Source of the DNA: an uncultured Clostridia bacterium
Lineage (GTDB): Bacteria; Bacillota; Clostridia; Oscillospirales; Acutalibacteraceae
NCBI GenBank assembly: GCA_946493765.1
Contig: CAMMAZ010000002.1
Coordinates: forward strand, 1-64,000
Direction of reading: 5' to 3'
Length of the DNA stretch: 64,000 nt
The position numbers and the translations under genes were made by a program. The notes under the pieces were generated by a model that saw nothing but the letters and a program-made list of their open reading frames with translations, was not told the DNA's origin and did no database searches. Shown one piece after another: positions 10,266 through 13,166 of this stretch (the first letter of the stretch is position 1; each line of letters begins with the position of its first letter).

Positions 10266-10390
10266 GTTTCAATGACTCCTTCATCTTTTTAATTTTGCAT
10301 TAGTATACCACAATGTTTATCGGATTTCAACAGTATAATGGCGAAATCTGGTGGCAAAATAAGACCGAAACAGAAGTTGCAAAGGAGAAG

Positions 10391-11728
10391 ATGATAGCAA
10401 TGAAAAGAAGAACGACGGTGCGGATCATCAGTTTCGGTTTGGCTGTCTGTGCGGCGTTGGGCGGTTTTATCGCCATGCAGTGGCGCGATAACCGCAACTT
10501 GAATCAGCTGCTCACCAATCAGTATACCGCGGCGATGACCGATCTATCCGATTGTTTGTCTCAAATTAATGTGCTGCTGCAAAAAGAAATGTATTCCGGG
10601 ACATCCAAAGGGTTTGCGGAGCTGTCTTCCCATTTGTCACAGACGGCGGGCGCCGCAAAGGCAAGTCTGGCGCGTCTGCCGGTTTCCGGCGAACAGACAG
10701 ATGCGATTTTTAAATATTTATCCCAGGTTGGGGATTTCAGTCTGTCGTTATCCAGAAAAGCGGCAGCCGGCAGCGATATGACCGATGAGGAACGTTCCTC
10801 ACTGCAAAAGCTGACCGATTATTCGGGAAAATTGTCGGATGAGATCACCGCCATCCAGACGCAGATGGAAACCACCGGCTGGGACGGCGAGATCACCGCG
10901 ATCTTTGACGAGGCCAGCGACGAACTTTCCGATTTGAACAGCGCCATTGAGGATACCGCCCAAACGGTGACGGGTTATCCGACGCTGATCTATGACGGTC
11001 CGTTTTCCGATCATGTGAATTCGCTGGAACCGGAATATATCAAAGACAAAACCGCCATCAGTCGGGATGAGGCGGCAAAAATCGCTGCCAAATATCTTGA
11101 ATGCGACACCGATGAAGCAAAATTTTACGATGACGAGGATGGGCAGATCACCGCTTATGTTTTCACGCATGGGGATGATTCGGTCGCCATTACGCGGCAG
11201 GGCGGGGTTTGTTTGTATCTTTACCGCGCGCATCAGCCCGAAACAGTTGAAATCACAGAGGAAGAAGCCGTCGCAAAAGCGCTAAGCTATGCCCAAGACC
11301 GGTTTGGCATGTCATTTCAAGAAAGCTATTATATGGTGAATGAAAATATCTGTGTTGTGAATTTGGCGTATCTTCTGGAGGATACCATCTGCTACAGCGA
11401 TCTTGTTAAAGTCGGCGTTGCGATGGATACCGGTGAGATCGTCAGCGTAGAAGCGCAGGGACTGATTATGAATCACAAGGAACGCTCCGCGCCTCAGCCG
11501 GAAAAAACGCAAGAGGAGGCGCGCGCAAGCGTGAGCAGCGCGCTGGATATCCGGTCGGTCAACACGGCGATTATTCAGCGGGAAGATTTAAAGGAAGTGC
11601 TGTGTTATGAATTTGTCTGCAAGGGGCAAAACGACGAAAATATTCTGGTCTATGTCAACGCCGATACCTTGGATGAGGAAAATATTTTAATGCTCATTGA
11701 AACCGAAGGCGGCGTGATGACAAGATAA
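10391..11728 (+). CDS. ypeB: Germination protein YpeB-like (PepSY domains)
   Basis: N-terminal TM followed by QLLTNQYTAAMTDLSDCL; C-terminal PepSY-like repeats; start ATG at 10391 or 10400. Confidence 0.8.
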   Translation: MIAMKRRTTVRIISFGLAVCAALGGFIAMQWRDNRNLNQLLTNQYTAAMTDLSDCLSQINVLLQKEMYSGTSKGFAELSSHLSQTAGAAKASLARLPVSGEQTDAIFKYLSQVGDFSLSLSRKAAAGSDMTDEERSSLQKLTDYSGKLSDEITAIQTQMETTGWDGEITAIFDEASDELSDLNSAIEDTAQTVTGYPTLIYDGPFSDHVNSLEPEYIKDKTAISRDEAAKIAAKYLECDTDEAKFYDDEDGQITAYVFTHGDDSVAITRQGGVCLYLYRAHQPETVEITEEEAVAKALSYAQDRFGMSFQESYYMVNENICVVNLAYLLEDTICYSDLVKVGVAMDTGEIVSVEAQGLIMNHKERSAPQPEKTQEEARASVSSALDIRSVNTAIIQREDLKEVLCYEFVCKGQNDENILVYVNADTLDEENILMLIETEGGVMTR

Positions 11729-11739
11729 AAAATAAGATG

Positions 11740-11771
11740 TCCGGATATGCAATGCGCATATCCGGATTTTG
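11740..11771 (+). terminator. Intrinsic terminator of ypeB
   Basis: tccggatatgc-aatgc-gcatatccgga then tttt; the IS insertion point lies in its T tract. Confidence 0.8.
11745..11769 (+). repeat. Left copy of 25-bp target-site duplication
   Basis: atatgcaatgcgcatatccggattt, identical to 12833-12857. Confidence 0.88.
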
Positions 11772-12832
11772 TAGGTTTGTCAATGATGTGTTACAGAATT
11801 GGGAAAGAAAAAAGAACCTGTTTCGGGGAGCGCCAATTGAGAGGACGCATAGGGAAATTGTTGTATTGACGTTGGCGAACAGCGAGTTGCTTTTGGAAAT
11901 CGTGAAAGGAAAAGAACTTGTGTGAGGCATAGAATTCTTCATTGTCTTTACGGTGCGAGCGTTCCACTTTTCCGTTGTGGCGCGGCGTAAAAGGGCGGAT
12001 GAGCTTATGGCGGATTCCCAACTGCGCAAGGGTTTGTTCAAAGAGGGTTTTCTTGGCTGTGTTTTTGGAATTTAATCGGTTTGTAAACTCAGTACCGTTG
12101 TCCGTCTGTATGCATTCAATCACATAGGGGAACTTTTCCGCGACATGCTGAATGAATAGGGCAGAGGTGTACGTGCTATGCTCTTCAAAGGCTTCTAAAT
12201 AGCGGAACCGGCTGTATTCGTCAATAAACGTGTATTGGTAAAACTTCTTCCCTGCCGCCTCGCCGACAAGGCAGGCAGCAGGAACAAATTTCACATCAAT
12301 TTGCCCGCGTTGCCCGGGATACTGCATGGGTTCATATGGTTTCGGGATATATTTAGGATTTGGCAGTTTAACTGCCATTTGCCCACTGCGCGTCAACACA
12401 CGATACAAGCCGGAGACAGAGCGTGAATATCCGCGTTGGCGCAGCTTGACCCAGAGCACGACCAAGCCGGTATTTGGATTTCGTCGACGCATATTGCGGA
12501 TCAGTTTTAATTCTTCCTCTGTGTGCTGATTAGGATGGTGATGCGGTCGGTGGGAACGATCTGCCAAGGATTCCAGCGTTCCGTCATATCGCTTTTTCCA
12601 GCGATAGACATACTGCCGGTTCACGCGATAACGAATCGCTGCTTTTGTTACACCGTATTTTTCTGCATATTGAATCAGGGCTTGCCTAAACCGCATGGTT
12701 TGTGTTATCTTATTCATGGCGAATAGATGGATACCTGCCTTTCGGTTTTGTCTGGCAACTCTACCTTAACACAGGTCCTTTCTATTCGCTATCTTTTTTT
12801 CTTATTTGTTACACATCATTGTAACACCTACA
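11770..12832 (-). mobile_element. Complete insertion sequence (IS481-like DDE element), 1,063 bp
   Basis: Inverted ends TGTAGGTTTGTCAATGATGTGTTACA / TGTAGGTGTTACAATGATGTGTAACA; contains a DDE transposase; flanked by 25-bp direct repeat. Confidence 0.9.
11791..12717 (-). CDS. IS481-like DDE transposase (HTH + rve integrase core)
   Basis: HTH YGVTKAAIRYRVNRQYVYRWKKRY; GQIDVKF, IQTDNGTEFTNR, HNGKVERSH catalytic motifs. Confidence 0.93.
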   Translation of the reverse strand: MNKITQTMRFRQALIQYAEKYGVTKAAIRYRVNRQYVYRWKKRYDGTLESLADRSHRPHHHPNQHTEEELKLIRNMRRRNPNTGLVVLWVKLRQRGYSRSVSGLYRVLTRSGQMAVKLPNPKYIPKPYEPMQYPGQRGQIDVKFVPAACLVGEAAGKKFYQYTFIDEYSRFRYLEAFEEHSTYTSALFIQHVAEKFPYVIECIQTDNGTEFTNRLNSKNTAKKTLFEQTLAQLGIRHKLIRPFTPRHNGKVERSHRKDNEEFYASHKFFSFHDFQKQLAVRQRQYNNFPMRPLNWRSPKQVLFSFPIL

Positions 12833-12857
12833 ATATGCAATGCGCATATCCGGATTT
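12833..12857 (+). repeat. Right copy of 25-bp target-site duplication
   Basis: atatgcaatgcgcatatccggattt immediately after terminal CCTACA. Confidence 0.88.
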
Positions 12858-12861
12858 TTAG

Positions 12862-12890
12862 TTGATTTTCCAAAAAGGATATGCTATACT
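12862..12890 (+). promoter_or_regulatory. Putative sigma-A promoter
   Basis: TTGATT-17-TATACT just right of the IS. Confidence 0.6.
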
Positions 12891-12947: not shown

Positions 12948-13166
12948 ATGAAAATGAAAAAAATAACGGCGATATTGCTGTCGGTTGCATGTCTGGTGGC
13001 CTGCATGACAGGCATATCGCCGTCGTCACTTGCACAGACGGCAGACGATGGATATACATATGAAGTTTGTCCGGATGGTCGCCGAACTGATTACCCAGTC
13101 GGATTTGCCGATGTGACAAACGGACAACGCCTTTGTGTTGGAACAACAAAAACGGTTCAGGGATGA
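12948..13166 (+). CDS. Short putatively secreted peptide (72 aa) or remnant of a larger secreted protein
   Basis: MKMKKITAILLSVACLVACMTGISPSSLAQ signal peptide; stop codon lies inside the terminator hairpin. Confidence 0.45.
   Translation: MKMKKITAILLSVACLVACMTGISPSSLAQTADDGYTYEVCPDGRRTDYPVGFADVTNGQRLCVGTTKTVQG

Follow-up and report, generated by a model that had tools for sequence, protein, structure and literature searches.

The insertion sequence (IS) in the window, by which we mean the whole 64,000-nucleotide stretch of DNA analysed, very probably represents a group of IS481-related DDE elements whose transposition machinery selects active sigma-A-type promoters and cuts about 26 bp apart upstream of the -35 box. 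The duplication length, its fixed position relative to the -35 and -10 boxes, the orientation bias, the empty site and the generality of the pattern are apparent from the sequences themselves. We infer further that the transposase recognises promoter-bound RNA polymerase rather than reading bare hexamers.

The element and its surroundings

An earlier note on this DNA had placed an IS481-like element with a perfect 25-bp duplication at positions 11745-12857. These coordinates proved exact, and the repeat abuts both IS ends (Table 1): each is directly adjoined by ATATGCAATGCGCATATCCGGATTT, and a 26th base, T, matches as well if the terminal T of the IS is counted. The ends are imperfect inverted repeats of 26 bp (TGTAGG...CCTACA), and the element has a single transposase ORF. 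The earlier description of the ypeB terminator also agreed with what we found, the left copy being whole and the right one lacking its first 5 bases. Judging by its position relative to the promoter, the 72-aa ORF appears to be the gene that this promoter serves.

Table 1. Coordinates of the insertion sequence and adjoining features in the window
Feature	Position	Strand	Remarks
ypeB-like gene, 471 aa, upstream of the insertion	10313..11728	+	ORF; homologues in 13/19 relatives
ypeB terminator stem-loop	11740..11766	+	Whole at left, 5 bases short in the right duplication
Target site duplication, left copy, ATATGCAATGCGCATATCCGGATTT	11745..11769	.	Perfect 25-bp match to the right copy
IS481-like insertion sequence, 1,063 bp	11770..12832	- (strand of transposase gene)	Bounded by inverted repeats and the 25-bp direct repeat
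Left terminal inverted repeat, TGTAGGTTTGTCAATGATGTGTTACA, transposase 3' side	11770..11795	+	Matches 17 contig ends of the same genome
Transposase, 308 aa, DDE (D141, D206, E252), HTH and integrase core	11791..12717	-	Pfam, NCBIfam
Right terminal inverted repeat, TGTAGGTGTTACAATGATGTGTAACA (reverse-complemented), transposase 5' side, facing the target promoter	12807..12832	-	
Target site duplication, right copy, ATATGCAATGCGCATATCCGGATTT, at the UP-element position	12833..12857	.	4 bp upstream of the -35 box
-35 box of the target promoter, TTGATT	12862..12867	+	29 bp from the IS end
-10 box of the target promoter, TATACT, with TG just before and a 17-bp spacer	12885..12890	+	
Downstream ORF, 72 aa, signal-peptide-like start	12948..13166	+	ORF list

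Length of the target duplication and an empty site

The host genome is a draft of 64 contigs, and the ends of a multicopy sister element, 17 left ends (the same left end as that of the window IS) and 15 right ends, sit at its contig ends. This sister element evidently broke the host assembly. Positions 1-55 of the window (G000:C2:19-55) are themselves its left end, so that the contig starts in the sister element; many other contigs of the draft also end in it, and its interior is absent from the assembly. When left and right ends were paired through their flanks, 13 pairs had 24-27 bp in common at the junction, each a different sequence.

Relatives came from one scan of 84,980 species genomes, which gave 405, and the best 80 of these were kept. 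Cultured carriers include Herbinix hemicellulosilytica and Mobilitalea sibirica. The duplication was measurable in 37 of the best 80, with lengths of 25 bp (7 loci), 26 bp (16), 27 bp (7) and 28 bp (5), and one locus each with 21 and 22 bp. Copies with short duplications, which the earlier note had thought incompatible with its reading, were not found among the 13 host pairs and the 37 relatives, 35 of which lie within 25-28 bp. The perfect 25-bp repeat at the window IS is not a product of chance, since it stands exactly at both ends and since more than 45 other insertions have such repeats, differing in sequence.

An empty site is available for one relative, 56% identical, in genome G059. This IS of 1,051 bp has a 26-bp duplication and is flanked by a tRNA gene and by a gene which we take, by eye from its sequence, to be yebC-like, 30 bp upstream of TTGCGT-N17-TACAAT. 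In the sister species G294 the flanks are joined, with one copy of the duplicated stretch, no tandem pair and a conserved promoter; the alignment has 80% identity over the region and several small gaps around the site. The earlier note had asked for an empty site that might already carry tandem 25-mers, and the single copy in G294 replies to this for the relative rather than for the window copy. No empty site was found at the window's own ypeB locus: in the nearest genomes of the genus the identity of ypeB is only about 35%, and the genomes that carry close transposases are not more closely related.

Promoters at a fixed distance from the insertions

The promoters at all insertion sites described here are sequence predictions. 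In the window, TTGATT-N17-TATACT has its -35 start 29 bp from the IS end, and in the host genome as a whole a sigma-A-type promoter was predicted at 16 of 16 readable sites, with the -35 at 29-31 bp. It lies on the right-end flank in 14 of the 16, window included. The remaining two pairs (L010/L029 and L013/L036), whose flanks were read by eye, have it on the left flank, with the -35 at 29 bp, so that these copies are inserted the other way round, and the left-side promoters of L010 and L013 also fall within the scored promoter set. Outward from the right end, the duplication comes first in each host flank and is separated by 3-5 bases from a hexamer resembling TTGACA; a spacer of 17 bases (18 in one case) then leads to a hexamer resembling TATAAT. 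Genes beyond these promoters include those for ribosomal proteins L19, L21 and S15, diaminopimelate epimerase (dapF), YicC and ZapA, as well as a sodium:alanine symporter, a CNNM protein, an ABC transporter and DUF951. At one pair (L008/L035, G000) promoters point outward on both sides of a single duplication at approximately the right distance, which suggests insertion between divergent promoters.

The same arrangement was found in the 80 other loci, no two of which have similar flanks. Promoters were scored with a cut-off of at least 9 at 29-32 bp from the IS end, a looser threshold of 8 was also used, and the expectation was taken from flank positions 60-320. Of the 71 flanks on the 5' side of the transposase, 43 reached the cut-off, as did 12 of the 62 on the 3' side, with 0.29 expected on each side. 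Dinucleotide shuffles gave 0.6 of 70 (maximum 3) for the 5' flanks against 41 observed, and 0.5 of 61 (maximum 4) for the 3' flanks against 12 observed. Where both flanks were readable, a promoter at threshold 8 was present in 50 of 54 loci, roughly two being expected per side; it was absent from the expected position in the other four (L093, L111, L122 and L141). In a column analysis of the 5' flanks that used no promoter model, the sole strong columns were TTG at 30-32 and a TATAAT-like block at 53-58. The extended -10, which is not part of the score, was also enriched (T 0.63 and G 0.57 at positions -3/-2 before TATAAT), and in this the insertion sites resemble real Gram-positive promoters.

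The gap between the duplication and the -35 box is 3-4 bp in 31 of 35 loci, which would put one cut immediately before the -35 and a second one about 26 bp farther upstream. Spacers other than 17 bp were few (16 bp at 9 sites, 18 bp at 3), too few to separate anchoring on the -35 from anchoring on the -10. A negative correlation between the -35 and -10 matches was discarded as an artefact of selecting on their sum. At L071 (Clostridium cadaveris), in GC-rich DNA, a 26-bp duplication is accompanied by a perfect TTGACA at 30 bp and no -10.

The transposase gene is usually divergent from the target gene, by about 4:1 or more. In the host genome some 14 promoters lie on the transposase 5' side and 2 on the other, while among the other loci 50 have a promoter only on the 5' side and 12 only on the 3' side. 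When the symmetry of the inverted repeats was compared with orientation, the positions of the IS ends were found to shift by one base between loci.

The earlier note had proposed a compact IS with an IS1202-like duplication that preserves the terminator of the host gene. Its first half stands, as the length is 24-28 bp nearly throughout; preservation of the terminator as the point of the arrangement is not supported, the common feature being the promoter on the other side of the IS, 29-32 bp away. The ypeB terminator is incidental to targeting; terminators occur at some sites but not at others, since the promoter of a gene often has the terminator of the gene before it just upstream.

Family and fold of the transposase

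Among NCBIfam models the best match to the window transposase was IS481 (NF033577), with 220.6 bits against a cut-off of 224, followed by IS21 (77 bits) and IS3 (45 bits). Pfam identified the domains rve, rve_3 and HTH_32. Residues D141, D206 and E252 are invariant across 34 relatives, and N259, seven residues after E252, is nearly so. The AlphaFold model (pLDDT 85) has a helical HTH region and an RNase H core, without an extra domain; the nearest solved fold is that of IstA of IS21, and then come retroviral integrases and TnsB. The distance from the second D to the E (residues 206-252) is 43-46 residues in the window clade. In IS481- and IS3-type enzymes this spacing is usually shorter, 35 residues.

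The IS481 model is thus the best match although the score falls just short of the curated threshold. With this family the element shares a DDE transposase of about 300 aa, a length of about 1 kb and 5'-TGT ends, and it differs in the 25-28 bp duplication of its clade, the published range for IS481 being 2-15 bp, with 6 the commonest length (PMC10045372). Because of its 25-bp duplication we have filed the window IS as an IS481-related element of a separate long-duplication subgroup, and not as a typical member of the family.

IS1202-like elements and other IS481-like groups

Is such targeting confined to the window clade? We compared it with IS1202-like elements, which have large transposases of the ISNCY_2 type, in the genomes G260 and G176 (20 copies, L216-L235). 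The transposase of L216 has 457 aa and matches NCBIfam NF033594 with 453.6 bits. In 18 of the 20 copies a promoter lies on the transposase 5' side with its -35 at 16-18 bp from the IS end (0.1 in shuffles), and in one more copy it stands on the opposite side. The duplications of these elements, 16-18 bp long, abut the -35 box. A third IS1202-like element, L191, which is 46% identical, has the same promoter arrangement. IS1202-like elements thus hunt promoters too, with a spacing different from the 29-32 bp of the window clade, and the comparison with IS1202 made in the earlier note holds for more than the duplication length on which it was based.

Harmer et al. (2023) described IS1202-group elements with duplications of 16-28 bp and found no target for the long-duplication group (PMC10132070). 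Family model, size and duplication length suggest that the elements of G260 and G176 belong to this published group. The window clade shares with it a 16-28 bp duplication, TGT...ACA ends of about 25 bp and promoter targeting (the latter as seen in the G260 and G176 copies); the IS1202 transposases, however, have 394-507 aa with Q seven residues after the catalytic E, whereas the window enzyme has 308 aa and N. The IS1202-like copies L216-L235 end in ...CTATTGACA, so that their own right end carries a -35-like hexamer beside the duplication. A single-copy IS1202-type relative that is 31% identical (L192) has, with putative ends, a 26-bp repeat and TTGCAA-N17-TACAAT at 25 bp.

No promoter peak at 29-32 bp was found in two other IS481-like groups of G059 or in the G229 group, and targeting therefore differs between branches. 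The two groups of G059 (L237-L242 and L243-L249) have transposases of 302 and 297 aa and ISs of 1,449 and 1,306 bp. They occupy loops of strong hairpins, of which many are intrinsic terminators, with a short duplication or none visible.

How the target may be recognised

In the mechanism that we favour, the transposase would be guided by the RNA polymerase holoenzyme at a promoter, for example through contact with sigma region 4 or with the alpha C-terminal domains. The IS ends would be joined to the two target strands at points some 26 bp from each other. Relative to the -35 hexamer, the cuts would lie about 3-4 bp and about 29-31 bp upstream, and gap filling would then give the duplication of 25-28 bp. 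The promoter would retain its -35, its -10 and the whole upstream 25 bp (the UP-element region), and the upstream gene would lose nothing. With both the promoter region and the upstream gene intact, insertion beside essential genes would presumably be tolerated.

The most serious alternative, which we consider improbable though worth weighing, is that the transposase itself reads the DNA of the -35, and perhaps of the -10, without participation of RNA polymerase. Precision to about 1 bp fits such reading, and L071, where TTGACA stands at the right place without a -10, agrees better with bare sequence than with a polymerase complex. However, the protein has 308 aa and no extra domains, and direct reading would require it to recognise a pair of hexamers that ends about 30 bp from where it cuts; sites with a poor -35 and a good -10 (TTGCGG or TTGTGG with TATAAT) are used as well; and a different family uses the same two hexamers at another distance. 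Polymerase contact is favoured because both hexamers and the extended -10 are enriched and because two families use the same signals at different distances.

Selection after random insertion, leaving only copies upstream of promoters, is very unlikely. Such insertions are probably harmless, and essential genes adjoin several of them, but survival cannot account for a precision of 1-2 bp relative to the -35, other harmless places are nearly free of insertions, and other IS481-like groups in the same class show no promoter pattern. Still less credible is targeting of terminator hairpins. It would suit the window duplication, which is made of terminator, several host sites just after terminator-like sequences, and the habit of the two G059 groups that do occupy hairpin loops; most sites of the window clade, however, have no hairpin (median fold of reconstructed sites -12 kcal/mol, against -23 to -36 in the hairpin-targeting groups), and nearly all have a promoter. 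That the 25-bp repeat is an older tandem duplication, the IS itself making short duplications or none, is an idea for which we found no supporting point and which deserves practically no credence, as different repeats of 24-28 bp flank about 50 independent insertions and the empty site in the sister genome has one copy.

Beyond guidance of the window clade by polymerase, we incline, with only slightly better than even confidence, to a broader reading. Transposases of both the IS481 and the IS1202 type may capture RNA polymerase-promoter complexes, and duplications of about 17 or about 26 bp may reflect cuts on DNA covered by the alpha C-terminal domains, in phases specific to each family. Promoter hunting would then have evolved independently in a second DDE lineage, and the long duplications of IS1202-type elements would be explained.

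Comparison with known systems

Insertion at a fixed few base pairs from a protein-binding site and in a fixed orientation is familiar from Tn5053, a res-site hunter, whose target is res and not a promoter. The term res-site hunter appears in PMC7765201. The same kind of insertion is seen in the ISAjo2 group, or dif hunters (PMC10132070), whose target is XerC/dif rather than a promoter.

Promoter-directed insertion is known in kind from Mutator-type elements. Guerillot et al. (2014) showed that TnGBS, ISLre2 and ISKra4-group elements, which have transposases of the Mutator type, land upstream of sigma-A promoters at a distance of 13-17 bp and with one prevailing orientation, and proposed RNA polymerase contact for them (PMC3942029). 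The window clade shares the fixed distance upstream of sigma-A promoters and the prevailing orientation; it differs in its IS481/IS21-like transposase, in the distance of 29-32 bp and in the duplication of 25-28 bp. No description of promoter targeting by IS481 or IS1202 elements was found in the open literature, to which our search was limited, and within that literature promoter targeting by elements of these types, with unrelated transposases, longer duplications and distinct spacing, appears to be new. IS481EU of parabasalid eukaryotes (PMC10045372) is also IS481-related and has duplications of about 4, 15 or 25 bp; unlike the window clade, it has mixed lengths within one family, and no target has been described for it.

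The long duplications (16-29 bp) of IS481- and IS1202-type elements, such as the 27 bp of IS1202 itself and the 28 bp of ISSeq2, have been recorded without explanation, and we offer the DNA just upstream of promoters as the target for both. With them, two transposase lineages would be known to insert at fixed distances from bacterial promoters, the other being that of the Mutator-type elements, and the likeness between the two appears to be convergent. The elements of the IS481 and IS1202 types may provide a simple test system for contact between transposase and RNA polymerase, and in bacteria that have been little studied their insertion sites may locate promoters with base-pair precision.

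Plasmid records gave only distant IS481 matches (30-38% identity, one fragment excepted) together with ISEsa1-like matches. One relative, L066, has a transposase 96% identical to that of the window, while the YpeB of its genome is just 36% identical, which points to recent horizontal transfer of the IS.
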